DNA from: a virus | DNA length: 56,383 nucleotides | Direction: 5' to 3' (one strand) | Virus record (IMG/VR): IMGVR_UViG_3300031841_002004 | Coordinates: 1 to 56,383 of that record | Part shown: in pieces, positions 50 through 50,807 of the stretch | How positions within the stretch are numbered: the stretch's first letter is position 1 | How the letters are laid out: each line of letters starts with the position of its first letter | Made by a program: the position numbers and the translations under genes | The notes under the pieces: generated by a model | The model's database searches: none | The model's input: only the letters and a program-made list of their open reading frames with translations | What the model was told of the DNA's origin: nothing

Positions 50-3000
50 CTACCTTGCCCCAGCTAATGGACTGAGCATTGCTTGAGCCTCTGCCTTCTT
101 TCTCTCCCGTGCTTTTTTCTGAGCCTCGCTCTGAATGGTGCGGTAGAGAAGGTAGAGCTTCTGCTGTTCCGGTGTCATAGTATTCAAGGCTTCATCTGGT
201 ACTGAGATGTTTTCATAAACTCTCGTGCCAGGCGTGCCTTGGAGAATTTCATTTAGCATGTCACGGGCAGCTCGCGACCGTGCAAGCTCTGGATCAACGT
301 CAGAGATTTTTACACCAAGTGCGTTATTGACTAGCAACTTAATAGCACGTTGTTGAGGTGTCAGCCTGTCGTCGGTAATTCCTTGGAAGATACTCATGCC
401 CTTAGAACCGAATGGCACAATGTTTCTGATGAAGTTTTCCAAAGGACGATAGCCGGGGCCAAACTGTTTCTCTAGTGAAGAGAACGTATCCCGAAGATTC
501 TTGCCAGTATACAACTGCGTCCCAGTTGCTGACTCAATCCCAAACTTAATCAGTGGGTTTGATTGACCGGCAATGTTAGCAAGTGTTTTCGCCGCAGTGT
601 CAGACAGACTGCCACCCTGTGTTAGTAAGTCGAATGTACCTTCCCAAGGCAAGTCGATGTTTGTCAGGTAACGCTGCAAACCTTCCGCTCCGCCATACGC
701 CGCTGGCAATGGTATAGCAGCAGACTTACGGAGATATTCAGGCACGAAGTTTTCTTCTGTGGGTTGGCTTGCTCTGTTGACTGCCCGTATGGATTGACCC
801 ATCACGCCACCAGGACGATACACCATGTTGTTTGCAATCGAAGGCAAGATACCTCGCTGGAATGAATAGAAAGGTATGAGCTGTTTAATGTAGTCGTTCT
901 CAAACCTTGTGAATGCTTCTGGTCTATAATCGACGTTTGCCATTCTTGAAAGGTCGCCAGCTACACCAGGTGCAACACCTTTCCTTGCTTGATTTAAGAA
1001 CGTGCCTAATCGCAGTGTGTCTTCAACAGCCTCGTTGCCATAATCAATGGCTTGCAAAAGAGGGTTCGTGTTTTCTCTCAGCGGCTTAGGATTTCTAAGT
1101 CCCCGTACCCCACGCATACCAAAGAAGTTACTCGGCTTCAAACCTTCTTTGATTGCGCCAAGTATGTTCGGTCGCTCTTTATCTAAACCAGGCAATGCAC
1201 GGGATTCTTTATTTGCAATACCAGCTAGGTCTGATACTACGTTGCCGCCCAACAAATCTTGAGCTGCTGCTTCTCTGGCAAACTTAAAATAAATCTCGTC
1301 GTCTAGGTCTTGCCCCGCAAACTTAGCTTCTAATTCACGGTAGGCTGGAGTTCCTTTAAGTCTTTTAACAATATCATCTTTCAAAGACTTCCCGGTAATC
1401 ACTCCTGTGCCACCACCCCTAGCAGCAAAAAAGTCTAGGATGTTTCCTGCACCTAACGATGCATTATTAGCCAAACCAGAATAGAGGTTACGAACTAAGA
1501 ACGCTGGGTTCCCCAAGGCCCCAACTTTAAATGCATTGGTAAACTGTCGATACGCACCACCAAGTCCAGTGATAGGTTCACGGACAGTAGTTTGCGGCTG
1601 AAGAGTGGTCAGTGCATCTAGTAGCTTCTTGTCAATTGCAGCCTTGCCAGGAGTACGCTGTATCTTCTTTTTTCCCTTTGATGTGAACTTGCCAAGAAGT
1701 TCATTCATTCTCTTGCTTTTATTAGCAAGACCAAGAGAACCTGTCGCCCCTATGAAAGGCTCGAAACCTATCGGCGCACTATCGGCCTTGGTCTGACGAA
1801 GCCCTCTGCCAACTTCTTTCCCAAGAAGGTCATAGATTGCATTCAGGGAACCAACGTCAGCAGCACCTATCTTGAGCCTGCTTCTTATATTATCCATCAC
1901 TGGTGAGTCAAAGAGACCAACGCCACCTTCTTTGTATTGCAGGTCGAGATTAAGAAGGCGTTTTGCCATGTCGCGATAGAACTCTTTAATCTCTGCGTTC
2001 TTCGCTCGCAGCATTCCTCTGGATTTATCGACGGCACGAAAATCAATATTGGGAACAATCTCTTTAAACTTAGCAGCGTTTCTAGCAACTCTCTGTGCTT
2101 CAGCATTGGAAAGCTTTGGTTTTGCTTCTAGGACAAGGTCAAAGTTTCTATTGAAGTTTTCTTCGTCTAAAGCTTTTGCTGCCTTGTATTCGTCAGACTT
2201 TAAGAAGTTGCCAAGATTATCTCCGTATAGCGTCTTGACCTCTGGCTCAACGCCAAACGCATCTCGCATTGCAGAGCGATACGCCTTGTTGATTTCTTCG
2301 CGTGCTGCCTTGTTATTTATTTCACCAAACCCGAGGCTATCACCCAATACGTCTTGAAGATATTCACTCCCCATATCTCCAAACTTTTTTTCAGTCGTGA
2401 ACTTCCGCATCAACCACTGAGGCAAGTCAAGCTCCGGCTTCCTGCCTTTCACGCCCTGACCAAAAATCTTTGACTGACGAGCATACGCACCTGGCTTCTT
2501 GCGAATTCCTTCAGGTAACATAGCTTTGTTAAACGATTGGCTTTGTCGTGGGATGTAACCTAGGCCGGTTAGTTTTCCTTCTGCATCTAGGTTGCCTGTG
2601 CGAGTCCAGTTGTTTGACACGAATTCAGCAGCATCACCACCAGCATCTTCGGTCATCTTCCGAAGTCTAGGGCCTAAGTCCTTAACGAAGTTCGCTAAGT
2701 CCATGTACTCTTTGTTCTGTGAAACTGCCTTGTAGACAGGATTCTTTTCTACTTGAACAGCGAAGTATGCGGGGTCTTCGACAAAGTCATTAATAGCTCT
2801 TTGTATTTCAATATCATTTACTGGTATGACTTCGCCTAAGTCGTTTACGAGGGGGCTTGTTTTAGCCCTAATAAGTTTGTCGTCAAACTGCCCGTCCCCA
2901 CCAATTAAATATTCAGCGCCTAGAGTTGAGTCACGAACTTTCTTTCGTGATAACTTCTGCCCAGCCAAAGTGCCTTCGAGGTCACCGGGGATATAAAAGC

Positions 3001-3871
3001 CGCCCGAGTCTGTGTTGAACAACGCAGACAGTCTTGTCGTAGCAGGGCCAAGGTATGGGTTTTCCGTAGCAAACTTAGCGACGGTATCGCCAACCTTTGC
3101 GGGCAATCCTCCAACAAGCGGAAGGTCAAATGCTGTGTTTATGTTTGTGCCAGGTATGCCAATACTCAAGTCTTTAGCTAGAGGCTGCTTCAGTGCTTCA
3201 TCTAAAGGAGCCGTTCCACCAAACCGCTCATACTGCTGTGCAAATGTCCCTCTTGCGTCTTTTTCTAATTGTTTAGCAGCTCCTTCGGGCAAGTCTATTT
3301 TACCTAGGTGTGTCAGAAAATCGTCAGCCGTTTTTGTTCTATACAACTCACGCACGCCCACGCCTAGTTCGTCAGCGTACTGCTTCGCAAAACGAGAAGC
3401 ACCAGAGGCATCCAGTGCTTTCATCGCTTTTGTAGCAGCACCCTTACCAAAGGTACTTGCACCAGGAGCAATGTAGGTTAAGGGGTCTAATAGAACTTCC
3501 CCTACCATTCCCGCCGTCCAGTTACCCCAACTATCTTCTGCGTTATCGTCGAGCAAACCATAGTCTCGCATTAATTCGCGACCATCAACTCGTTCATCGA
3601 ACGTGCCGAATGCAGATAGAGGGTCGCCTGCAAGAGTGCCTCTAACTAACGCACCAGGTAAGTCAAGAATCCAACCAGCACCAGCAAGACCAGATGCACC
3701 CATTTCCGCAAGACTGCGGAGCATGCCCTTCTTTTCTTCTGGCTCTATGAGGTCAGCTATTGTTAAGTCGCGGTCATCTCCGTACTCACGACCTCTGAGC
3801 ATTCCCATCTCTGCTTGACGTTGTAGTATGCCGTATGGGTCATACCTATCTATCAGAGGTGAACGAGCCAT
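50..3871 (-). CDS. Large internal virion / ejection-type protein
   Basis: This 1273-residue protein is the largest of the virion block and shows no catalytic motif I recognise. It has Gly/Ala-rich hydrophobic stretches near residues 55-80, 105-135 and 780-820 and a highly charged helical C-terminus. Its size and its place at the distal end of the structural operon, behind the tail tube genes, fit the role of an internal core or genome-ejection protein of a short-tailed phage (the place held by gp15/gp16 in T7). That assignment rests on context and not on visible homology. The ATG follows the preceding stop after three bases with only a weak ribosome site, so translation is probably coupled. 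Downstream only a GTAGG/CCTAC mini-hairpin and the window edge are seen. Confidence 0.55.
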   Translation of the reverse strand: MARSPLIDRYDPYGILQRQAEMGMLRGREYGDDRDLTIADLIEPEEKKGMLRSLAEMGASGLAGAGWILDLPGALVRGTLAGDPLSAFGTFDERVDGRELMRDYGLLDDNAEDSWGNWTAGMVGEVLLDPLTYIAPGASTFGKGAATKAMKALDASGASRFAKQYADELGVGVRELYRTKTADDFLTHLGKIDLPEGAAKQLEKDARGTFAQQYERFGGTAPLDEALKQPLAKDLSIGIPGTNINTAFDLPLVGGLPAKVGDTVAKFATENPYLGPATTRLSALFNTDSGGFYIPGDLEGTLAGQKLSRKKVRDSTLGAEYLIGGDGQFDDKLIRAKTSPLVNDLGEVIPVNDIEIQRAINDFVEDPAYFAVQVEKNPVYKAVSQNKEYMDLANFVKDLGPRLRKMTEDAGGDAAEFVSNNWTRTGNLDAEGKLTGLGYIPRQSQSFNKAMLPEGIRKKPGAYARQSKIFGQGVKGRKPELDLPQWLMRKFTTEKKFGDMGSEYLQDVLGDSLGFGEINNKAAREEINKAYRSAMRDAFGVEPEVKTLYGDNLGNFLKSDEYKAAKALDEENFNRNFDLVLEAKPKLSNAEAQRVARNAAKFKEIVPNIDFRAVDKSRGMLRAKNAEIKEFYRDMAKRLLNLDLQYKEGGVGLFDSPVMDNIRSRLKIGAADVGSLNAIYDLLGKEVGRGLRQTKADSAPIGFEPFIGATGSLGLANKSKRMNELLGKFTSKGKKKIQRTPGKAAIDKKLLDALTTLQPQTTVREPITGLGGAYRQFTNAFKVGALGNPAFLVRNLYSGLANNASLGAGNILDFFAARGGGTGVITGKSLKDDIVKRLKGTPAYRELEAKFAGQDLDDEIYFKFAREAAAQDLLGGNVVSDLAGIANKESRALPGLDKERPNILGAIKEGLKPSNFFGMRGVRGLRNPKPLRENTNPLLQAIDYGNEAVEDTLRLGTFLNQARKGVAPGVAGDLSRMANVDYRPEAFTRFENDYIKQLIPFYSFQRGILPSIANNMVYRPGGVMGQSIRAVNRASQPTEENFVPEYLRKSAAIPLPAAYGGAEGLQRYLTNIDLPWEGTFDLLTQGGSLSDTAAKTLANIAGQSNPLIKFGIESATGTQLYTGKNLRDTFSSLEKQFGPGYRPLENFIRNIVPFGSKGMSIFQGITDDRLTPQQRAIKLLVNNALGVKISDVDPELARSRAARDMLNEILQGTPGTRVYENISVPDEALNTMTPEQQKLYLLYRTIQSEAQKKARERKKAEAQAMLSPLAGAR

Positions 3872-3874
3872 TTA

Positions 3875-5704
3875 TTAAGGAGTAGGTAATCCTGTTTGGT
3901 TAGCGGAAGGTGATGCCCCGGCTCTTGATGGCTCTTTATACAACCCTGCCATGCCTTCAACTAAAGCCACTGCCTGTTCTTGCGATATTCCTGGCATTGC
4001 AGCAATTTCTACTATAGCGGCTTGCTTTTCTTTTTCTGTTAAAGCTGTACCAGGCCGTAAACTATCCTTCCTTACGGCGTATTTATCCAAGACATTAGTT
4101 ACCTTCACAAACTGTGCTTCACCCATTCGTTGTAGAATTTCTTGAGCTTGTGCTTCTTTAAGTTTAGCATCTGCTGTAGCTGTAGTTTGAGCAATCGCGG
4201 TTTGTTGTTTAAGAACTTCAAGTCTTTCTGCCCTGTCCGCAGCTGCTTCTTTGAATTCTCGTTGTCTTTCTGCCTCCGCATCCCGCCCTTGGGCAAGAAG
4301 CTCTTCACTCCTACGGTCTGCTGCCCTAATTTCTTGCTCAAGCCTTGACTGCAAGGCAGCCAGTTCGTTCACGCTTAATTCTTTCTTGAGTGCTGCGTCC
4401 ACTGCTGCAAGCTTCGCGGCATTTTCTGCGCCAATGGTAGCAACATCAATCTTTGACTGTGCGTCAATTTCAGCTACACCCATATTGGATTTTTTATTTG
4501 TCCTTGCAACTTTTTCAAGAGCCGCTGCCTTCCTGTCTTCAATATCAAACTTAGTTGACTCAGGCATCATCTGCTGCATTGCTCGTCTGCGGAACTCTTC
4601 ACTCATGTTAATTCCACCAGGAAGCTCTCCTCCCATCAGTAGCATCTGAGCATTAATATTGTTCTGCGTTGGACTGACTCCAGCCAGCATGCCGCGAGCT
4701 TGAATAAGCTGCTTACGGCTTGCCTTGTCAGCAACTTGGTCTCTTCTCTTCTGTCTAACTTCAGGACTGTCAGGATCAACACGCAAGCCCATAGAGCCAT
4801 CCATCTTTCGGTATGGCGTGTACTGAGTTTGGTCTGAATATCCGCTGCGGTCACGCATGCGATTCATTCGGGTTTGCAATTGCTTCATTTGATGTGGATT
4901 TAACACGCCCCTATCTTCGGTCAGACCCATCTTGCCCACTATGGTTGGGTTAACAAAAGTCGCATTCCCCTCTGCATCAACGCCTTCAATGTAATCGTAA
5001 GCAGGTGTACCGTCCCAATCTTTTGTAGTTAATCCGAACACCTCTTGCGCCATTGCTATATCATCTGGGCTGTGCGTCATCTGCTTTCCGCCATGAACCC
5101 GTGTAACAGGAACAGTGCGGTCAGGGTCTTCAGCGGTTGGGCTAGCAACTTGAACTTCCTCTTGCCTAAAACCTCCAGTAACAGTTGGGTCTTGTTCTAC
5201 TAGATTGTCATAGGTTCGTGGCTCAATCATGCCTAGACGCTCTGCTTCATCTCGCTGGCGATTGTAAACATCCTTCTCTACAGCCATGCGGTCTGCCATC
5301 TTTTGGTCAGCTTTCGCCTGGTCATTGCTTTGCTTTAAGACCCCTCGCTCCAGACCAGCATCGTAAGAATTGTCGATGAAGTGACCGTATCCTTCTTCAC
5401 CATCAGAGAGCAATGGATTGCCGCTACCAGCCATAGGGTCAACGCCCATGTCTAAACCTGGCGCACCAACTAATCCACCGTTCAAAGACTCAGGCCCAAG
5501 GTTAAACGGAACTCCATCATCGGGAGGAAGATTGTCTTTACTGTATGGCCCAGGTGCTTGCAAGAATTCTTGGTATTGCTCAGGGGTCGCGTCAGGAGCA
5601 TTTCCTCGAAGTTGCAATAATGCAAACTCTACAGGAACACCATCTCGTTGGGCGATAGCCTGCGCCTGTGCTAAGACTGCTGGGTCATTAATATCAACCG
5701 GCAT
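3875..5704 (-). CDS. Putative virion protein with long coiled coil
   Basis: The 609-residue product has no recognised domain. The N-terminal 200 residues are Gly/Pro/Asp-rich and probably extended. Residues about 390-540 are an Ala/Glu/Gln/Lys-rich segment that should form a long coiled coil. The last 60 residues look like a small helical domain followed by a Pro/Ser/Ala tail. The start has a good ribosome site (AAGGAATAG before ATG). Its place between tail tube genes and the giant ejection-type protein suggests an internal or portal-associated virion component, by position only. Confidence 0.5.
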   Translation of the reverse strand: MPVDINDPAVLAQAQAIAQRDGVPVEFALLQLRGNAPDATPEQYQEFLQAPGPYSKDNLPPDDGVPFNLGPESLNGGLVGAPGLDMGVDPMAGSGNPLLSDGEEGYGHFIDNSYDAGLERGVLKQSNDQAKADQKMADRMAVEKDVYNRQRDEAERLGMIEPRTYDNLVEQDPTVTGGFRQEEVQVASPTAEDPDRTVPVTRVHGGKQMTHSPDDIAMAQEVFGLTTKDWDGTPAYDYIEGVDAEGNATFVNPTIVGKMGLTEDRGVLNPHQMKQLQTRMNRMRDRSGYSDQTQYTPYRKMDGSMGLRVDPDSPEVRQKRRDQVADKASRKQLIQARGMLAGVSPTQNNINAQMLLMGGELPGGINMSEEFRRRAMQQMMPESTKFDIEDRKAAALEKVARTNKKSNMGVAEIDAQSKIDVATIGAENAAKLAAVDAALKKELSVNELAALQSRLEQEIRAADRRSEELLAQGRDAEAERQREFKEAAADRAERLEVLKQQTAIAQTTATADAKLKEAQAQEILQRMGEAQFVKVTNVLDKYAVRKDSLRPGTALTEKEKQAAIVEIAAMPGISQEQAVALVEGMAGLYKEPSRAGASPSANQTGLPTP

Positions 5705-5714
5705 GTTCTATTCC

Positions 5715-6146
5715 TTATTTCAAAAGCGTAGCTGGCGTAGACAAAGGCATCGGGCGAGACTCTTGGACAAGAGCCGCTGTGCCTAGCGGAGAAACATCTA
5801 GTGCGTCCGCTGGTATTTTGTTTCCGTATGAATCTCGTTTGGCTTCTTGGACTGCTTCTCTTGCGAGGTCAAGTGGATCACTGCCTTCACTAGTCTCTTC
5901 TCCAGTGACTGCTTCCATTACCTCTTCCATGACTTCACCGATTTCACCTGGAACTTCTCCATCGCTTTCAATGACAGTTACCGATGCCTCTGGTATTTCG
6001 TCAACAGCCTCACCACCATCAACAACATCAAGGATTTCTGACAAAGCAACTAAGTCCTCAAGCGTCATGTTCTCGTCGCCCATCACAGGTGCGCCTTGAG
6101 TCTGTAGTTCTTGGATTAGACGAGACAGAATTTCAGGACTAAGCAT
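5715..6146 (-). CDS. Small acidic hypothetical protein
   Basis: A 143-residue, very acidic protein with runs of Glu and Val in the middle and a Pro/Thr-rich C-terminus. I chose the ATG giving MLSPEIL because it overlaps the previous gene by 8 bases. A longer in-frame start would only read through the Lys-rich tail region of that gene. No domain is recognised. It belongs to a run of four short, tightly overlapping genes between the large virion proteins, so it is probably virion-associated or assembly-related. Confidence 0.5.
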   Translation of the reverse strand: MLSPEILSRLIQELQTQGAPVMGDENMTLEDLVALSEILDVVDGGEAVDEIPEASVTVIESDGEVPGEIGEVMEEVMEAVTGEETSEGSDPLDLAREAVQEAKRDSYGNKIPADALDVSPLGTAALVQESRPMPLSTPATLLK

Positions 6147-7161: not shown

Positions 7162-9462
7162 TTAACCTTGCTTTAGAACTGGTAATGCCCTCCCAGGCCC
7201 TACCGATGGCGAGTAATTCGGAAACATTGGAGCGATATAACCAGGGTCGCCTGGGAGTTGCATACCGCCATATACAGGCATCTGGTATGTACCGCCTGGC
7301 CCTGTAAGGGTTCTTTGGCCTGTTATTGGCCCCATGTTTGTCTTACGAATCTGTTCGTTGCGTCTTGCAGCAGCCCTCTCTGCCTGCTCTCGCATCATTT
7401 TTCTTTGCTTGTAATCAATGTAGTTCTGTTCAGCTTGACGTTGTCTGCGGTCGGCTTCAGCCTGACGCTCTTCACCACTCATAAAGAATGGGTTGTCACC
7501 GAACGAATCATCAAACAGGTCTTGCAGGATTTGGTTCTGGCCTTCAAAGTTAGCTTGCTGCTGATCCATCGTTCCTTGATATCCAGTGTCAAGCCTGTCT
7601 CCCTGCGTTTGGAGCATGTCGTTGAAGTTTCTTACTTGCGACCCGTAACCCCCTCCTAGCCTGTCTTGTGTATTAGTAAGCATTCCAGCGAGTCCACCCA
7701 TACCAGCAAGCGCAAGTGCATTATTTTGAGTCATTACGTCTTGAGCTTTATCGAATTGGTCTGAGTAGCTGCCGAATCCAGTATTGATATCGTCGCGAGT
7801 TGAGTCGATGTTGCCTGTTGTGGCTTGGAACGCATCGCCCAAATCGCCAAGGATTCCACTGTAATCTGTGCCAGAACTACCAACCATGTCGTAAGCGCGG
7901 TCGCGAGCATTGCCAATTTCTTGATAGCCCTGATTGGCAAGGTTAATAAAATCACCTCGCATAGTATCAAGCATCGACTTGTTATCTAAAGTGTTTTGGT
8001 TGTAAGCATTGCCCATCGTGTCCAAAACTGTATTGAAATTAGTATTGAGCATTCCAGGGATTTCGCTGTCTTGAATCCCCAAACGAATCTTGTCTAGTTC
8101 TGAGTATGCTTGGTTTGCAGCTTCTCGGTTTCTAATCTCGTCCATCACGGAGTCGATGCCACCGTATGCTCTATCCCCTAAGTCTTGGTTGTTGGCTAAT
8201 CCTTGCAATGCATTAAGCTGATCAAACCCTCTTTGACCCGCTGCATCAATGCCCCCATAAGCGCCGCCAATGGCTTCACTCATTATTTCGTTTGGACGCT
8301 GACTGCTTTGACTTTCAGAAGTTTTAGTCCCGCCAGCATCAACACTTCCACCACCACCAACTGATACTCCACCTCCAGTACCACTCACAGTAGATGTGTT
8401 AATAATTTCACCGTTTGGCCCAACAGCAGTTACGGTAGTTGGCGAACCACCACCACTAAAACTGTCAAATAATCCCCCGAGGTTTACCGTAGACTCAGTG
8501 CTTGAGGAATCATCTCTGTTGATTAGGTATGGGGCTGCGCCAGACATCACATCTGCATATGACTGACCAAGATTTCCGCCAAGTGCAGCAGACGACTGAC
8601 CAAGTCCAGTTAATGCTCGTAGGCGTTCGGCTTCAATCTGTCCGCCAAGATTAGCGTATGCATTCCCCGCACCAGCGAGAGCCTGATCCCGCGAGCGAAT
8701 GTCTTCGATACCTACATTCGCAACACCTTGCCCTAAGTTAGCCAAACCTTGGTTTTGGCTTATTCCAAAATCTGACAAGGCGTTTTGGTTTTCGTTGCCC
8801 AGTACTGCTAAGGTTTGTAGGTAATTTTGATTATTAGCAGCGGCATTTGCCATAGCGGCATTACTCATCCCGCCATAGTTTGCCAGTGCTGAGTTTGCTA
8901 ATCCTCCCAACGCTCCAAAATCACCTTGTGCTATATCGCCAATAGACTGATATCTTGCAGCCCCCTCATTGCCCATTGCACCAGCAACATTACTTAGAGC
9001 ATTTCCATAATTAGACTGCGCTCCAGTGTACCCCCGCATGGCTTCTGAAAGAGCATTATTGTAAGAACCGTAACCAGTTGTGTATTGACCATACATGTCA
9101 GCCATTTCATTGGCCGAGCCTTGCCCTAGCTGGCCCATCGCATTTGCATAAGCCCCATAAGTGCCACCTAGGTTGTTCATGTAGTCCGACCCAGCTTGGG
9201 TCACGCCGCTACCGTATGTGTTTAGGAGGTTGCCGTGACCACCAACGTAAGCTTCATAACCTCGCATCGCGGCATCGCTATTCTGCCCGAACATGTCTCG
9301 GTACAGGCCACCGAATTGGCCTGGAATTTGGGCGAGTGTATCTTGGTGCTTAAAAAAAGCATCAGGACGACCTGCCGCAGGCGAACCAAACGTAGGTTTA
9401 ACTACGCCCCCACTGCCACCCGGTTGCTCCATTGGCCTATAATTAATCGTACTTCTGATCAT
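7162..9462 (-). CDS. Gly/Asn/Ala-rich repetitive virion protein
   Basis: A 766-residue protein dominated by Gly, Asn, Ala, Gln and Tyr. Residues about 40-300 are a long run of degenerate short repeats (G-x-Y-x-N-A-L/M-like) that should form a low-complexity helical or coiled assembly. Around 320-390 is a Ser/Gly/Thr-rich linker. The C-terminal 120 residues are charged (Arg/Glu/Gln) and end in a Gly/Pro-rich tail. The start has AAGGAG seven bases upstream. It sits between the HxH fibre-like gene and the small internal proteins. It could be an internal or ejection protein, or an elongated tail component; there is no clear homology. Confidence 0.5.
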   Translation of the reverse strand: MIRSTINYRPMEQPGGSGGVVKPTFGSPAAGRPDAFFKHQDTLAQIPGQFGGLYRDMFGQNSDAAMRGYEAYVGGHGNLLNTYGSGVTQAGSDYMNNLGGTYGAYANAMGQLGQGSANEMADMYGQYTTGYGSYNNALSEAMRGYTGAQSNYGNALSNVAGAMGNEGAARYQSIGDIAQGDFGALGGLANSALANYGGMSNAAMANAAANNQNYLQTLAVLGNENQNALSDFGISQNQGLANLGQGVANVGIEDIRSRDQALAGAGNAYANLGGQIEAERLRALTGLGQSSAALGGNLGQSYADVMSGAAPYLINRDDSSSTESTVNLGGLFDSFSGGGSPTTVTAVGPNGEIINTSTVSGTGGGVSVGGGGSVDAGGTKTSESQSSQRPNEIMSEAIGGAYGGIDAAGQRGFDQLNALQGLANNQDLGDRAYGGIDSVMDEIRNREAANQAYSELDKIRLGIQDSEIPGMLNTNFNTVLDTMGNAYNQNTLDNKSMLDTMRGDFINLANQGYQEIGNARDRAYDMVGSSGTDYSGILGDLGDAFQATTGNIDSTRDDINTGFGSYSDQFDKAQDVMTQNNALALAGMGGLAGMLTNTQDRLGGGYGSQVRNFNDMLQTQGDRLDTGYQGTMDQQQANFEGQNQILQDLFDDSFGDNPFFMSGEERQAEADRRQRQAEQNYIDYKQRKMMREQAERAAARRNEQIRKTNMGPITGQRTLTGPGGTYQMPVYGGMQLPGDPGYIAPMFPNYSPSVGPGRALPVLKQG

Positions 9463-45421: not shown

Positions 45422-45492
45422 TGGTCTTGTTAGAGTGCATTGTTAGCGGAGTGGTTCTTATTACTGTAATCGTATGGGCAGGGAGTGACTAA
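45421..45492 (+). CDS. 23-residue membrane peptide
   Basis: A 23-codon ORF encoding MVLLECIVSGVVLITVIVW followed by AGSD. It is almost a pure transmembrane helix, starts with a strong AAGGAGG site, and is coupled by TAATG to the recombinase gene. Such micro-proteins can alter membrane or enzyme activity. It is too short for homology. Confidence 0.5.
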   Translation: MVLLECIVSGVVLITVIVWAGSD

Positions 45493-46247
45493 TGATTTAC
45501 GGATACGCAAGGGTTTCAACAGGCAAGGAAGACCAAGAGAAGTCGATACCTAACCAGGTTGCAGCAATAGAAGAGTTAGCTGATACCATCGACGATTCTT
45601 TTGGTGGTGTCTTCGTTGACGATGGCGTGTCAGCCTACAAGGTTGAGTTACGAGACAGACCTAATGGCAGGAGACTGCATGACAAACTGGAGCGTGGGGA
45701 TACTGTAATCGCCACGGACTACGACAGACTGTGGCGAATTGAGAATGACAGAGAATGCTGCAAGGATTCATGGAACAACCTAGGCGTTACGCTGCACATC
45801 GTTGGTCAAGCTCCACAGAAACCAAGGCCCCGCATCACTGCTGACGAGATGCTGCTTGAGAAAATCGAGGGTGTCATGCCGCAATACCAAAGCCACAAGC
45901 ATGGCGACAAGGTATGGAATTGTCACAGAAGGTATCGCAAGAACAAGAAACCGTATGCAGCCATGCGTCCTTGGGGATGGAAGAGCAATGGCAAAGGTGA
46001 TTGGGTAGAGAACAGTAAGGAACGAGAAGTTGCAGAGCGAATCACTTTCCTGCGGGACGACCAGGGTTTGTCTTGGAGGAAAATTGCGAACACGCTTTTC
46101 CTGGCAAGGATTCGCAAGCCTGTGACCCAGAAGAATTCTTCGGGCAGGTACTGGCCCAGCGATTGCCGGAGTCTTTACCGGGCATCGGAAGACGGATATC
46201 CAATTTCTCCGCAAGCTCCTTCATCAATCGTCGATTCTTCATCGTAA
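45492..46247 (+). CDS. Serine recombinase/resolvase family protein
   Basis: A 251-residue protein with the catalytic domain of serine recombinases. The N-terminal GYARVST carries Ser9, and the DRLWR motif (Arg79 and Arg82) follows. The C-terminal part GLSWRKIANTL and RIRKPVTQKNSSGRYWPSD fits the end of a recombinase domain. Its function would be site-specific strand exchange (integration, resolution or inversion). It is short for a large serine integrase. The final 20 residues look unlike the family and lie inside the opposite-strand sigma gene. Confidence 0.75.
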   Translation: MIYGYARVSTGKEDQEKSIPNQVAAIEELADTIDDSFGGVFVDDGVSAYKVELRDRPNGRRLHDKLERGDTVIATDYDRLWRIENDRECCKDSWNNLGVTLHIVGQAPQKPRPRITADEMLLEKIEGVMPQYQSHKHGDKVWNCHRRYRKNKKPYAAMRPWGWKSNGKGDWVENSKEREVAERITFLRDDQGLSWRKIANTLFLARIRKPVTQKNSSGRYWPSDCRSLYRASEDGYPISPQAPSSIVDSSS

Positions 46248-46707
46248 CGATTCTCATTGCTGAATCATTCTCTTCACTCAGTTGCCGAAGAGTCATGTTC
46301 TCAATAAATCTCTGGGCTGCAAACTCTTGGTCTGCCTCATCGAGTCCTTCGATTGCTAGACGCAAGTGATCCAGTTCATCCTCTGTTCTTAGTTGATGCT
46401 CTGCTTCACTCATTGCCACCCGTTCACCAGGTGACCTAGTAATCTTTCGCATGAACTTGCACATGGCATTCAGTACTGCCCGTGCGAAGTATGCCTTTGG
46501 ATATGGCAGTTTCTTTTTGTCATAGGTAATAGCTGCCTTTGACAATGCAAGGTAACCCTCACCCTCAAGGTCAGGTATCATTGCAGACCTTTGCCACCCT
46601 GGTCTCTGCGAAACAAAGTAACGTGAGAGCATGCGAACTAAAGGCATGTACTCAACTGCCAGTTTTTGTCTTGCTTTTGATAACTTCGATTTCTTTTTCG
46701 TGGGCAT
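46042..46707 (-). CDS. Phage sigma-70 family RNA polymerase sigma factor
   Basis: A 221-residue protein. Region 2-like sequence is EYMPLVRMLSRYF, DLEGEGYLALSKAA and AYFARAVLNAMCKFMRK. Region 4-like sequence is LDEADQEFAAQRFIENMTLR, then SEENDSAMRIVTMKNRRLM. It would direct host RNA polymerase to phage promoters. The last gene of a minus-strand unit, it overlaps the serine recombinase by 206 bases tail to tail. The last 45 residues (after DIRLPMPGK) look like translated recombinase DNA and not like sigma sequence. Confidence 0.75.
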   Translation of the reverse strand: MPTKKKSKLSKARQKLAVEYMPLVRMLSRYFVSQRPGWQRSAMIPDLEGEGYLALSKAAITYDKKKLPYPKAYFARAVLNAMCKFMRKITRSPGERVAMSEAEHQLRTEDELDHLRLAIEGLDEADQEFAAQRFIENMTLRQLSEENDSAMRIVTMKNRRLMKELAEKLDIRLPMPGKDSGNRWASTCPKNSSGSQACESLPGKACSQFSSKTNPGRPAGK

Positions 46708-46879
46708 CTAATCGCTCTTCATGTTGTTCCAGTTTGATACGGAGTTCTTTAATCAACTCCGGTAATGCCTCGACCGACTGCGCTATCAGCGCAACCTTGG
46801 CGTGTATAGAAAACGCCCAAGGTATAACGGCAAAGACGGCAGCTAATAACACTGCGAGAATTTCTACGTCTACTGTCAA
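46652..46879 (-). CDS. Holin-like single-pass membrane protein with coiled coil
   Basis: A 75-residue protein with a TTG start that overlaps the preceding stop, after GGGGAAGAGC. Residues about 5-24 form one transmembrane helix (ILAVLLAAVFAVIPWAFSI). The following 50 residues form an acidic/basic coiled coil (LIKELRIKLEQHEERLDAHE). Size and topology match small holins or lysis-regulating membrane proteins. It follows the protease cassette, supporting a lysis role by inference. Confidence 0.5.
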   Translation of the reverse strand: MTVDVEILAVLLAAVFAVIPWAFSIHAKVALIAQSVEALPELIKELRIKLEQHEERLDAHEKEIEVIKSKTKTGS

Positions 46880-47145
46880 AGCTCTTCCCCCATAGCCATC
46901 AGGGCCATAAGCCCTACATATGGATGCAAGCGACCAGTTTCCACCTGATCCCAGATGCAATCCTTCATTTGTTCTTCTTCTTCTCGGGGGTACACGTAGA
47001 TATAAGTCTGCCCATTACAAGTGATGGTCATATCTACAACATCCTCTTCACCGAATTCGTAGTTGTCGAAGTCAGTGTCGTCGAGAGGTAGAGATTCGTA
47101 GTCGTTAAACCAACTATCGAATGAGAACCGTGGTGCATTTGCCAT
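46876..47145 (-). CDS. Acidic small protein in the protease cassette
   Basis: An 89-residue protein rich in Asp, Glu and Tyr (DTDFDNYEFGEEDVVDMTIT) with a single beta domain and two Cys. It overlaps both neighbours. It could be a small inhibitor or partner of the proteases, but this is only context. Confidence 0.45.
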   Translation of the reverse strand: MANAPRFSFDSWFNDYESLPLDDTDFDNYEFGEEDVVDMTITCNGQTYIYVYPREEEEQMKDCIWDQVETGRLHPYVGLMALMAMGEEL

Positions 47146-47422
47146 TAAGGCATCGCGTTTCTTTCTTGGCCGGAGGTTCGTTTATCTCGACGGGGTCATG
47201 TACTAGTGCCTTGTCAGTGGTCTTACACTTACAAGTTTCTGGGCAGGGGCAGTCAGTGATGTGACCGTCACCGTGAATAATCTTCCCACCTTCACATATG
47301 CCACAGCATTCAGTCGGCGTGTCATCCAGTGGTGCAGCCAAAACATAGGCAGCTTCACATGCTATGCGTGGCGTGTAGTCAGGCTGTGGGTCAGCTAGGA
47401 GAGCGAGGATAAATTCAATCAT
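47114..47422 (-). CDS. Cys-rich small protein in the protease cassette
   Basis: A 102-residue protein with a hydrophobic N-terminus (MIEFILALLADP, possibly a short export signal). The centre is Cys-rich (CCGICEGGKIIHGDGHITDC, then PCPETCKCK) and resembles a metal-binding or disulfide-rich domain. It overlaps the papain-like gene by 8 bases, so they are translated together. I recognise the CxxC-GGKI-HGDGH style from environmental phages, but no function is known. Confidence 0.5.
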   Translation of the reverse strand: MIEFILALLADPQPDYTPRIACEAAYVLAAPLDDTPTECCGICEGGKIIHGDGHITDCPCPETCKCKTTDKALVHDPVEINEPPAKKETRCLNGKCTTVLIR

Positions 47423-48347
47423 CAGATAGCATTCCTATGGTTCCGAAGTCAGGCAGTTGTTGTGGTGGGAAACCATCAACACCACCATACACCCAGCAGT
47501 CTCCACTGCTTACGCATACATTGAAGTCGTCGGCTGTTGTAACAATCAAACCTGGCGGAGGTTTAGGGAATGACTTAGGCCAGTCTTTCACTGGCTTATT
47601 CCATGCTCCCCATGAGTTGGCTATGAACCATACACGGAAGGGCCAGAATTCTTTTGTGTCGTCGTACCCCACGATTCCCATGTCATGATTCCATGACCCT
47701 TTTCTTTCGTGTACGTTTCGGCTTGAGGGAGTGCCGCTCCATGCAGCAGACTGCCCCGAGTGTGCGGCGTACCCATTGATCATGGCATCCATCAAGTCTT
47801 CCTGCGACTTAATGTTTCGGATATTGTTTACCTTCTGATTGTTGCACAGTTCCTTGACTTCATCAGGCACACCACCTCGACCCCATCCTGTACCGATGCT
47901 GCTTTTGTATTTGGTCAGGTCACACGCATCGTACTTCTCTCGTACTAGGTATCCCGTATCTCTTTCAAACCGTGAAGCTCTAGCCGGAGACATGCCTTGA
48001 CCACTATGTCCTCTTGCGCCATACGTTGGCTCAGTCGCACCACGTTTGTAAAAGTCAAAGGGTTCTTTCCTTACGAGGATGCGACAACACCGTGAGATAT
48101 CACGGGCGTTACGCGAGCCATGCGAGACACAGTCTCCTGTTGTCTGCCGCTCACTGAATGCACCCTTATCGAACTTGGTGTAGTACTGCCACAGTAAAGC
48201 TCGCTTGCCCTTGCCACTGTCCTTGATGTTCCCTTCACTGAAGTACGGATGCTTCTGTGACTCTAAGAACTGTATGCGTTCACGTACATCCTCGATGTAC
48301 CCAGGCAAACCATCTTCGTATTCTTTGACAATGTCTTTATCTGGCAC
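47415..48347 (-). CDS. Papain-like (C1-type) cysteine peptidase
   Basis: A 310-residue protein with the papain active-site pattern. Q68 and C73 lie in QTTGDCVSHGS, H221 in WNHDMGIVGYDD and N244 in IANSWGAWN, matching Gln/Cys/His/Asn in order and spacing. There is no signal peptide. The GTG start overlaps the preceding gene by 11 bases. C1 peptidases are rare in tailed phages. It sits in a cassette with a subtilisin and several membrane proteins and may help break proteinaceous host envelope structures, or process phage or host proteins inside the cell. Confidence 0.75.
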   Translation of the reverse strand: MPDKDIVKEYEDGLPGYIEDVRERIQFLESQKHPYFSEGNIKDSGKGKRALLWQYYTKFDKGAFSERQTTGDCVSHGSRNARDISRCCRILVRKEPFDFYKRGATEPTYGARGHSGQGMSPARASRFERDTGYLVREKYDACDLTKYKSSIGTGWGRGGVPDEVKELCNNQKVNNIRNIKSQEDLMDAMINGYAAHSGQSAAWSGTPSSRNVHERKGSWNHDMGIVGYDDTKEFWPFRVWFIANSWGAWNKPVKDWPKSFPKPPPGLIVTTADDFNVCVSSGDCWVYGGVDGFPPQQLPDFGTIGMLSDD

Positions 48348-48741
48348 TTGCAGCTATCTCCTTACAAGCAGCAACGATGTCGTCCGCAACTCCTGACAAA
48401 GCTACGTTGTCTAAAGAGATGTGGCTTCCAATAACCTCTTCGACGGCATCGTCTAAATCGGGGTACTTTCCCACTAGGTCTGTACCTCCTACGGCTAGGC
48501 CCAGTGTGTTCTGATGTATCTCTCGCCACGCAGCAGTGGTAGGTATTCGCTCACCACCATCACGCTCTGTTATGTCAGCTAACGATTCGTAGATACTGGC
48601 GACAGTCGCCTTGTCTTTAGCAGTGGCATAGCGGAGAGCTTCAGCTACTACACCTGTTGGTTTTGGTGGTGCTTCTTTCGCAGGAAGGAATGTGTATGCC
48701 ACATAGAGAACTGCGATAGCCATCACGATATGCTTGCTCAT
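48337..48741 (-). CDS. N-terminally anchored protein of the protease cassette
   Basis: A 134-residue protein with a hydrophobic segment at residues about 4-20 (HIVMAIAVLYVAYTFLP) that would act as an uncleaved anchor or signal. A helical, acidic remainder follows. It is coupled to neighbours on both sides. It could be a partner of the peptidases on the outer side of the membrane. No family is known to me. Confidence 0.5.
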   Translation of the reverse strand: MSKHIVMAIAVLYVAYTFLPAKEAPPKPTGVVAEALRYATAKDKATVASIYESLADITERDGGERIPTTAAWREIHQNTLGLAVGGTDLVGKYPDLDDAVEEVIGSHISLDNVALSGVADDIVAACKEIAASAR

Positions 48742-48977
48742 GTCTTCACCTTTAATAGAACTTCAAGCAGACTGTTGCATGCCTTAGTCACTTCTGTTGT
48801 GGCATGAGCCTGACGTATAGCAACAACATCTTCTATCTCTTTCATCAAGTCAGGCTTTGCCTTGGTCACTGGCTTAACTTGAGGCACGGTATCTATAAGA
48901 GCTTTAATGTTTGGGAGGTAAGCCCACACAAAGATGCAGCCCACTATTACCAAACCAATAATCTGTTGCGTTGTCAT
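48738..48977 (-). CDS. Small single-pass membrane protein
   Basis: A 79-residue protein with one transmembrane helix (residues about 5-22, QQIIGLVIVGCIFVWAYLP) and a Lys/Ala/Thr-rich cytoplasmic or periplasmic tail. It overlaps the subtilisin gene by 4 bases. It is possibly holin-like or an anchor protein for the peptidases. Confidence 0.5.
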   Translation of the reverse strand: MTTQQIIGLVIVGCIFVWAYLPNIKALIDTVPQVKPVTKAKPDLMKEIEDVVAIRQAHATTEVTKACNSLLEVLLKVKT

Positions 48978-49852
48978 AGAAAACTTTCCGTTTTGATTAA
49001 CATTTGTTTCGGATCAATCAGACCCCAACCGTAGATATCATCGTGTCCAGCTTGACCAACATCGGTACAGGTTTCGCGTAAGACCTCGAAGACATCTGGT
49101 GGGTTCTCCCTGTCTTTCCAAGCAGACAGGTACAGGGCCAGCACTCCAGCTACAAAAGGCGCAGCCATACTTGTGCCAGATAGAGTTGCATAATCGTTAT
49201 TGAGCCAGGTGCTTGTGATATCTTCGCCAGGAGCTGCAACAATTATTTGTCTGCCCCGGCAACTAAACTCACACGCATGGCCTTTGCTATCAACCGCACC
49301 GACCGCAACTGTTTCTGGGAACGCAGCGGGAAAATTCACTGACCCTGCATCATTACCCGCAGCGCAGACAGTGATCACCCCCTCTCGATGAGCTTCTTCA
49401 ATCGCATTATGAACTCCTTTACTAGGAGAAGAACCACCCAGGCTCATGCAGATAATGTCTGCACCAACTTTAGTGGCATGTCGAACCGCTTGGGCAACAT
49501 GTTCGTTGCTACCAAATCCTGAATGCCCTAACACTTTTAAAGAAAGAAGTCTGGCTTTCGGAGCGACTCCTTTACATCTACCTCCGGTGCTAGCAATGAT
49601 GCCAGCAACGTGAGTACCGTGACCCAAGGTGTCATAGAACTCCGAGTCACTAGTGAAGTTGCGATAGTCTGCACACTCTAGGTGCGAGTGTTGTGCAACA
49701 CCGGAATCTATCACGGCTACAGTCACACCTTTACCCTGAGACTTCTGCCATATCTCTGGTATGCCATAGGAAGAAACTCCCCAATCAACACCAGTTGACA
49801 TGATTGAACTACCGAACTGAACTCGGTATGGCGGCAGGTGAACTAAGCTCAC
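48974..49852 (-). CDS. Subtilisin-like serine peptidase (S8)
   Basis: A 292-residue protein with a complete subtilisin triad. D49 lies in VAVIDSGV, H81 in GHGTHVAG and S228 in GTSMAAP, and the oxyanion Asn167 is in CAAGND. There is no signal peptide or long propeptide, so it would be made active inside the cell and released or exported by other means. The GTG start overlaps the preceding gene (GTGA), with AAGG upstream. A subtilisin in a lytic-type cassette of a tailed phage is unusual. It may help lysis of a host with a proteinaceous wall or S-layer (inference). Confidence 0.9.
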   Translation of the reverse strand: MSLVHLPPYRVQFGSSIMSTGVDWGVSSYGIPEIWQKSQGKGVTVAVIDSGVAQHSHLECADYRNFTSDSEFYDTLGHGTHVAGIIASTGGRCKGVAPKARLLSLKVLGHSGFGSNEHVAQAVRHATKVGADIICMSLGGSSPSKGVHNAIEEAHREGVITVCAAGNDAGSVNFPAAFPETVAVGAVDSKGHACEFSCRGRQIIVAAPGEDITSTWLNNDYATLSGTSMAAPFVAGVLALYLSAWKDRENPPDVFEVLRETCTDVGQAGHDDIYGWGLIDPKQMLIKTESFL

Positions 49853-50181
49853 TTGCCTTCCCGTTGCACAAAATCAAAAACGATTTGAAGAACAGGGATG
49901 ATGATACTGGTCACTGCTATCCAGGGGATACCCAACGCAGACACATCAGCACCAAGAGCCATCAGCTCCACATCGTCTTCATAATCAAATGAGTCAGCGT
50001 CAAACGCCAGCACTCCACCGTCTTCAAACAACGGCAATACAATTCGAGCAACGGCATCAACAATCTTCCATCTCTCTTCAAGAGACATGTCTGTTGACCA
50101 TGCTTTAGTAAGCTCATAAATCTGTAGAGCCTGGTCACGGTGGCTTAACAACCAACGTGCGATTTTAACTACGGTCGCCAT
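49849..50181 (-). CDS. Small protein with C-terminal membrane segment
   Basis: A 110-residue protein starting at the ATG after AGGAGAGGACG. The N-terminal helix is basic, the middle is acidic, and residues about 84-104 (GIPWIAVTSIIIPVLQIVF) form a likely transmembrane segment. It is the first gene of the protease cassette and overlaps both neighbours. A holin-like or exporter role is possible. Confidence 0.5.
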   Translation of the reverse strand: MATVVKIARWLLSHRDQALQIYELTKAWSTDMSLEERWKIVDAVARIVLPLFEDGGVLAFDADSFDYEDDVELMALGADVSALGIPWIAVTSIIIPVLQIVFDFVQREGK

Positions 50182-50584
50182 CGTCCTCTCCTTCACTCAC
50201 GAGTAAGACGGCAATGACGGCATGGCCTGCTATGTCCATCATCGTTCGCCTAATATCAAATGTCCTTAAAGTGCCACCGAGTCTCCGGTATTTTTCACCA
50301 ATCCTTGCGAGTTGATATCTCCAAGGTTTAATCCCTGTCTCAGCCACACCTTTGGCGTTTGCGAGGGGTTCTTCTACGCAGTTGTAATACCCTCGTTTGC
50401 GGCTCAATAGCTGCCAGACGCTAACGCATACACCCCAGTATGGGTCTGCCTGGAGTAGCAGGCTTAGTTCTCCAAGGAGTGTTTCTATACGCGCTTGTGA
50501 TTCTTCCGAGTTCAGCCCAGAAGGTTGCGTGGTGATGGGGGTCTTCTCTACCGTCAACGTCTTCGAGTCCTTCAGTCCTAGCAT
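50165..50584 (-). CDS. Nucleotide-modification-associated-like protein
   Basis: A 139-residue protein. The end carries WRYQLARIGEKYRRL, FDIRRTMMDIAGHAVIAVLL, a pattern that resembles the NMAD1/DUF1599-type helical domain linked to phage nucleotide metabolism. I chose the ATG after GGAGGAATACGCCC. Its first 164 bases overlap the preceding zinc-peptidase-like gene in another frame. The assignment is weak and based on pattern. Confidence 0.4.
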   Translation of the reverse strand: MLGLKDSKTLTVEKTPITTQPSGLNSEESQARIETLLGELSLLLQADPYWGVCVSVWQLLSRKRGYYNCVEEPLANAKGVAETGIKPWRYQLARIGEKYRRLGGTLRTFDIRRTMMDIAGHAVIAVLLVSEGEDDGDRS

Positions 50585-50807
50585 GGGCGTATTCCTCCAG
50601 TAGTGTGTCAATCAGCGTGTCATTGCTCAGGTCGTTCCTCAGTCGTATCACTCCCTGTTCCTCGTTCACGAGATACCATTCCCCCAGACGGTCTGGCAGA
50701 GTCTTTCCCTCCACCAGCTTGATCCGAATCTTGAATCTCACTGGGTAATGTTTCATCAGCCAGCGTCTGACCTTGTCTATGAATTTCCTCTGCAAATCTT
50801 GGGGCAT
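50421..50807 (-). CDS. SprT-like/zincin-like protein
   Basis: A 128-residue protein. EEYAHA (residues 71-76), with the His of an HExxH-like helix, and a later HHH (91-93) followed by FWAELGRI match small phage SprT/zincin proteins. The first His of HExxH is replaced by Glu here, so peptidase activity is doubtful. It overlaps genes on both sides by long stretches (188 and 164 bases), and the conserved core lies partly inside the overlap. Confidence 0.45.
   Translation of the reverse strand: MPQDLQRKFIDKVRRWLMKHYPVRFKIRIKLVEGKTLPDRLGEWYLVNEEQGVIRLRNDLSNDTLIDTLLEEYAHARTEGLEDVDGREDPHHHATFWAELGRITSAYRNTPWRTKPATPGRPILGCMR

Follow-up and report, generated by a model that had tools for sequence, protein, structure and literature searches.

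The virus record IMGVR_UViG_3300031841_002004 of IMG/VR, a stretch of 56,383 bases that was analysed over its whole length and is hereafter called the window, contains a minus-strand operon (46042-50611) in which a subtilisin-like and a papain-like peptidase are encoded among several small membrane proteins. The order of the genes is g148, tm115, S8, tm79, tm134, C1, cys102, acid89, holin75 and a sigma-like gene. A sequence-only reading of this DNA had described a tightly overlapped run of genes, and this description was accurate: all named genes lie on the minus strand where they had been placed, and adjacent open reading frames (ORFs) overlap by 4-56 bases. The loci given in that reading were retained, but two starts had to be corrected. 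The tm115 ORF opens at GTG 50196, and homology moves its start to ATG 50181 (110 amino acids, aa). For the ORF at 46652-46960, the most likely start is TTG 46879, giving a protein of 75 aa that matches the length of most homologues.

The S8 subtilase (48974-49852, 292 aa) matches Pfam PF00082 across the whole family (E=8.5e-53; 180 bits against a cut-off of 21.8). Its catalytic residues D49, H81 and S228, from which a complete subtilisin had been predicted, and the oxyanion residue N167 are invariant in an alignment with 7 relatives, and the prediction is thereby upheld. The best matches in the PDB are intracellular subtilisins (ISPs), namely 7y6m (2.4e-68), 7xr8, 6f9m and 2x8j. An invariant N-terminal HLPPYR aligns with the inhibitory LIPY/F pro-peptide motif of these enzymes; having a Pro at position 2, it does not fit the published ISP pattern [LVI][IFLV]P[YFH] (PMC6220982). 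No signal peptide or other export signal was found in the window S8.

The second peptidase, C1 (47415-48347, 310 aa), fell short of the PF00112 gathering score as a single sequence (14.1 versus 20.7 bits), matches no PHROG, and had no relatives among 50,697 phage records searched with the window C1 and a second C1 (L110) as queries. Nevertheless, the assignment of C73, H221 and N244 as the catalytic residues of a C1-type peptidase was substantiated by residue conservation and by a structural model: C73, H221 and the oxyanion residue Q68 occur without exception in 110 of 110 relatives, and at position 244 there are 102 relatives with N and 8 with Q. The AlphaFold2 model built from 55 sequences reached a predicted local distance difference test (pLDDT) score of 90.6, a depth of alignment that was needed, as 6 sequences gave a pLDDT of only 38. 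In this model the fold is clearly that of papain, as seen in the comparison with xylellain (3ois; Z 21.0, root-mean-square deviation 2.8 over 229 residues). Residues 46-290 cover mature papain, and the preceding ~45 residues overlie the pro-segment of procathepsin. By profile, the nearest solved sequence is Cwp84, a cell-surface cysteine protease of C. difficile (0.0056). We consider C1 to be a divergent papain branch that the Pfam cut-off misses. No signal peptide was found in C1 of the window clade. In two related loci, an in-frame intein with LAGLIDADG-type homing-endonuclease-like motifs lies inside C1 on the plus strand (L009:8519-10726 and L037:8462-10726), its insertion point lying immediately ahead of the catalytic Cys (QTTGD / CFVAGT...AFIANGYAVHN / CVSHG). 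Inteins tend to occupy functionally constrained sites.

Around the peptidases lie four proteins with a single hydrophobic segment, a cysteine-rich protein and an acidic protein, just as had been read from the sequence. tm134 (48337-48741, 134 aa) combines an N-terminal membrane segment with a conserved 'GKYxGL' domain and is regarded as the exported partner of C1; its relatives carry a signal peptide followed by a PKD/Ig-like region, or a lipoprotein signal. The hydrophobic segment is C-terminal in tm115 (49849-50181) and N-terminal in tm79 (48738-48977, 79 aa). The cysteine-rich cys102 (47114-47422, 102 aa, 10 Cys) bears the motif ECCGxCxxGKIxHGDGHxTxCPCPxxCxCK, and acid89 (46876-47145, 89 aa) has a net charge of -17. 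In holin75 (46652-46879, 75 aa, probable TTG start 46879), the N-terminal membrane segment is followed by a coiled coil. This protein matched the 'holin' family PHROG_1296 weakly (E=2.4e-5), XhlA at 0.085 and DUF7365 at 1.7e-4, the last being below the cut-off, and Rz-like spanin PHROGs were matched by the protein with a transmembrane segment and a coiled coil at 0.033-0.14 only.

At the upstream end, g148 (50165-50611, minus) encodes a soluble 148-aa protein overlapping tm115, an order that is kept in nearly all relatives. The last gene of the operon (46042-46707, minus) encodes a sigma-70-like protein of 221 aa (phrog_351 0.0026, Sigma70_r2 0.014) that is likewise kept in relatives. The module ends at a convergent gene for a serine recombinase with a resolvase N-terminal domain (45492-46247, plus strand), the PF00239 Resolvase match (5e-17) being taken from the pooled Pfam table of the window and assigned to this ORF through its sequence. 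The position of the recombinase is conserved, and so is the layout in which it overlaps the sigma-like gene by ~200 bases (46042-46247). A 128-aa protein encoded at 50421-50807 (minus) contains LLEEYAHA...HHHATFW, which recalls SprT-like metalloprotein motifs.

The same gene order was found in other phages. C1 relatives obtained in IMG/VR protein searches share 53-99% identity, and as far as their contigs reach they show the order g148-tm115-S8-(tm79)-tm134-C1-(cys102)-(acid89)-75 aa-sigma-recombinase. After removal of C1 sequences with more than 95% identity, S8 precedes C1 by 0.4-1.3 kb, and the 75-aa gene follows C1, in all 33 non-redundant loci with an S8 gene. The other 37 non-redundant C1 loci have no S8 within reach, one of them (L026) being cut by the contig end. 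Protein identity to relatives drops to 28-57% while the gene order holds, and in every operon gene tested between the window and one relative (L003) the rate of nonsynonymous differences (pN 0.11-0.31) was several-fold lower than that of synonymous differences (pS 0.58-0.98). The operon is under purifying selection. Together with the overlaps and the 33 concordant relatives, this low pN/pS and the order kept at such divergence indicate that the cassette is not a product of chance. At seven loci (L005, L012, L018, L024, L027, L051 and L068), secreted proteins of ~205 aa with HEGNH or HEGTH (HExxH) are encoded ~3-6 kb upstream of C1 (for example L027:4756-5376); such a possible third peptidase is absent from the window.

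When viral contigs were searched with a profile of nine sequences, 356 C1 loci were retrieved, and 80 of them were kept for analysis. The distant clades (36-46% identity) lack S8; in them, C1 adjoins a relative of tm134 and a Cys-rich protein, and in most cases several small membrane proteins are present as well. Profile-profile comparison of the window proteins with these clades gave 99.1% for tm134 and 98.7% for the Cys-rich protein. The same comparison did not support tm79, tm115 and holin75 as homologues of the distant small membrane proteins, which they resemble in topology only. Since S8 is absent while C1, tm134 and the Cys-rich protein persist, these three constitute the core of the module, to which the serine peptidase is an exchangeable or optional addition. 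In one 170-kb phage contig (L036), C1 is preceded, two genes upstream, by a secreted trypsin-like serine peptidase (7741-8682; Trypsin_2 3.5e-17) and followed by a secreted protein resembling thioredoxin; a similar trypsin-type gene lies within the C1 module of another (L100:9365-10237). L036 also encodes, near the module, a protein with a C92 (YaeF/YiiX permuted papain-like) domain (5525-6064, plus). Many of the distant contigs carry a putative ribonucleotide reductase and a PhoH-like gene, as read by eye.

Several C1 loci belong to contigs of megabase size and have terminase, portal, capsid or tail genes as neighbours; they are therefore prophages. In five Planctomycetota prophages (L121, L122, L124, L128 and L129) C1 has its own N-terminal membrane anchor; the prophage relatives of tm134 are either lipoproteins or secreted proteins, and the module is accompanied by secreted proteins of the thioredoxin type (Thioredoxin_7 7.5e-8). 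The anchored C1, the exported tm134 relatives and the secreted thioredoxin argue that the module acts in the periplasm or envelope. In another prophage (L141), the module immediately precedes HNH-terS-terL-portal and capsid genes, named from reading their sequences, and this position is a common site for lysis genes. A C1/tm134 module was also seen in a 6.1-Mb planctomycete chromosome (L138:8552-13072, minus), with no obvious virion genes nearby. Nearby are a Transgly_assoc-like gene and a gene for a secreted, very Cys-rich protein that contains NVYTYQRKC; the module might have been domesticated there.

We then turned to the hosts. A genome scan yielded a 55-kb contig with the full window-type cassette in a metagenome-assembled genome (MAG) of the Pirellulaceae (L012), a contig in a Planctomycetaceae MAG (L014) and a short contig of 3.6 kb in a Synechococcaceae MAG (L013). 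The last was rejected as evidence of a cyanobacterial host, being probably a mis-binned phage; the Pirellulaceae contig may likewise be a binned phage contig. The C1 profile was positive in 13 of 392 Planctomycetota genomes, and in a control set of 292 genomes of the cyanobacterial phylum it found only the 3.6-kb contig and one match at E=5e-4. The phage family thus probably infects Planctomycetota, judging from these sequence matches. YTV cell-wall proteins were present in all 14 C1-positive genomes and in 1 of 20 C1-negative ones (Fisher p 1e-8), a comparison that is confounded by class-level phylogeny, as the negatives were the first twenty listed and may belong to other classes, and that shows a restriction of C1 to YTV-walled planctomycetes rather than causation. 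A full-score MraY was missing from 6 of the 14, including the Pirellulaceae MAG, versus 1 of the 20 (p 0.012), although incompleteness of MAGs can hide MraY. The Cys-rich YTV proteins are a wall component confined to the Planctomycetales, most of which lack peptidoglycan synthesis genes (PMC8567305), and in P. limnophila most of these genes are dispensable (PMC10632474). The earlier suggestion of a host with a protein wall, such as a planctomycete, therefore holds for the family as far as its host range and the YTV proteins are concerned; for the window phage itself, we infer a planctomycete host from the contig with the same cassette in the Pirellulaceae MAG.

That no endolysin is visible in the window was also confirmed: Pfam and PHROGs scans revealed no muramidase, amidase or other endolysin, 25 of the 32 Pfam families being listed. 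Six-frame searches of 31 related viral records for Amidase_2, Peptidase_M23, Phage_lysozyme, SLT, CHAP and NLPC_P60 gave no match to any of the six families, whereas the bacterial controls were positive; the hit rate to be expected in ordinary phages is a matter of general knowledge and not of a matched phage set. One related record of 60.25 kb (G698) looks complete because of its direct terminal repeat, the first 80 bases recurring at 60,128 and the last 80 at position 43. Among selected proteins of this record and of another relative (G707) that have no counterparts in the window, no Pfam peptidoglycan hydrolase was found. Two tail proteins of 859 and 953 aa with PHROG matches to 'tail lysozyme' and 'minor tail protein with lysin activity' were rejected as endolysins, because these matches cover repeats and Pfam gave Fn3-type families rather than catalytic domains. 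A 1273-aa protein (50-3871, minus) with orthologues in G698 and G707 (36-37%) has no Pfam, PHROG or PDB match, and no PDB match was obtained for proteins of 1140 and 766 aa either.

We propose that this operon enables the phages to breach the host envelope with peptidases, most likely as a lysis cassette, and that it is directed at Planctomycetota with a largely Cys-rich (YTV) protein wall and little or dispensable peptidoglycan. This proposal is in our judgement evenly poised, and lysis is the best-supported single explanation, with about an even chance of being correct. Both peptidases would build up in the cytoplasm in an inactive or restrained form, S8 being held by its N-terminal LPPY segment as in intracellular subtilisins and probably requiring calcium, and C1 having, ahead of its catalytic domain, ~45 residues that overlie the pro-region of solved zymogens. 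Late in infection, the inner membrane would be permeabilised by the single-span proteins holin75, tm79 or tm115, acting singly or together. Next, the protein wall and the proteins of the envelope would be cleaved by C1, with tm134 and the Cys-rich protein, and by S8, and virions would be released. As ISPs are restrained by an N-terminal LIPY/F segment and are calcium-dependent (PMC6220982), a cytoplasmic store of peptidase that is freed by a holin-like protein would be reasonable, as for ordinary endolysins. In this scheme we infer the timing, the substrate, the permeabilisation step, the lytic outcome and the identity of the holin. The sequence-only reading had likewise suggested a holin/lysin-type cassette with peptidases as effectors. 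Two genuine peptidases, the conserved cassette, the lack of a detectable peptidoglycan hydrolase and the export signals in relatives agree with it; its lysis is a prediction and its holin a candidate, the best holin match being weak (E=2.4e-5). Profile searches with each protein secured S8 through PF00082, but left C1 under the PF00112 cut-off. With somewhat less confidence, and at slightly below an even chance, we extend the proposal to a widespread class of Planctomycetota phages that would lyse their hosts without a peptidoglycan hydrolase. In these phages, a papain-like peptidase, an exported partner and an interchangeable serine peptidase of the subtilisin or secreted trypsin type, sometimes with a secreted thioredoxin, would dismantle a disulfide-linked protein wall.

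Several observations weigh against a lytic role. None of the small proteins of the operon scores above the curated cut-off for a holin or a spanin, and homology across clades is established only for C1, tm134 and the Cys-rich protein. S8 is restricted to the window phage clade and missing from the distant C1 clades, and by its closest solved relatives and its lack of a signal it resembles an intracellular-type subtilisin, which leaves room for action in the cytoplasm or in the virion. The cassette of the window clade is enclosed by DNA-metabolism genes and a sigma factor and does not adjoin virion genes. A very divergent peptidoglycan hydrolase could be contained in the unannotated proteins of 1273, 1140, 766 and 609 aa. 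Besides the phylogenetic confounding of the YTV comparison, MraY is present in 8 of the 14 C1-positive hosts, so that peptidoglycan is not absent from all of them.

Three other roles were considered. The peptidases and their partners might be packaged in the virion or attached to its tail, and might act on the protein wall, or on virion proteins, when the phage infects a cell or matures. The location of the module between capsid and tail genes in Planctomycetota prophages (L142, L014/L147), its position after a putative virion gene in distant large phages and the resemblance of the C1 N-terminus to a pro-region would suit such a virion or entry module. Yet in the 33 phages of the window clade the operon keeps company with DNA-metabolism and sigma genes, and several partners have membrane anchors, lipoprotein signals or signal peptides, which are unusual in virion proteins; we therefore regard this explanation as unlikely. 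More unlikely still, in our view, is that S8 and C1 serve cytoplasmic turnover or host takeover by degrading host or defence proteins, with the membrane proteins as incidental neighbours. The conserved order of the neighbours contradicts their being incidental, and relatives of C1 and tm134 are exported or membrane-anchored. Classical endolysins likewise lack export signals and rely on holins, which lessens the force of what speaks for cytoplasmic action: the signal-less C1 of the window clade, the location of the operon near a sigma factor and genes of replication, and an S8 without export signal whose best solved relatives are ISPs with an inhibitory pro-peptide (PMC6220982).

The module might also remodel the envelope without lysis, whether by shaving receptors, by excluding superinfection or by allowing chronic release across a protein wall that has been weakened. 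It is indeed kept in prophages and, in L138, in a chromosome without other obvious phage genes nearby, and a planctomycete phage has been reported to be released without lysis (PMC10945688). However, the module has more than one peptidase, and nothing else recognisable as an exit function was seen in the 56-kb window or in the 60-kb relative with terminal repeats, and we consider remodelling the least probable of the three alternatives.

In the literature searched, no link of papain-like or subtilisin enzymes to phage lysis and no description of a lysis mechanism for planctomycete phages was found, and a 2025 survey of viral lytic proteins in ISME J does not mention planctomycetes, cysteine or subtilisin. 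Should the operon be a lysis cassette, proteinases would join the known effectors of phage lysis, and the module would supply reagents for opening planctomycete cells. Whether the planctomycete wall is made of protein or peptidoglycan has been disputed for decades, and a conserved module with peptidases instead of an endolysin would provide evidence, from the side of the phage, of what holds these cells together. The family of 356 viral-contig loci also illustrates that a papain-like group of this size can escape PHROGs and Pfam cut-offs.

Compared with known enzymes, S8 shares with the ISPs (7y6m, 7xr8, 6f9m, 2x8j) the family, the triad, the lack of a signal peptide and a short N-terminal segment, but it is phage-encoded, reads LPPY and always adjoins a papain-like peptidase. 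C1 has in common with papain family C1A (xylellain, procathepsins and, by profile, Cwp84) the fold, the Q/C/H/N residues and a region over the pro-segment. Unlike its members, to which it is ~10-17% identical, it stays under the Pfam cut-off and constitutes a phage family of its own, accompanied by the gene of an exported partner. The holin-endolysin-spanin cassette of double-stranded DNA phages is similar in its small single-span proteins, lipoprotein or transmembrane partner, soluble hydrolases and overlapped operon, and one module-bearing prophage (L141) has the module directly before the terminase genes. The effectors of the window module are, however, S8 and papain-like peptidases instead of peptidoglycan hydrolases, and no partner reaches a curated holin or spanin cut-off; with proteinases as effectors the module by definition falls outside the canonical holin-endolysin family, although it may work like one. 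A likeness drawn from the literature is that to the pseudomurein endoisopeptidases (Pei) of methanogen viruses (PMC12596118), which are also viral peptide-bond hydrolases fitted to a non-murein wall. Pei cut the peptide cross-links of pseudomurein, whereas the proposed substrate of the window module is protein.

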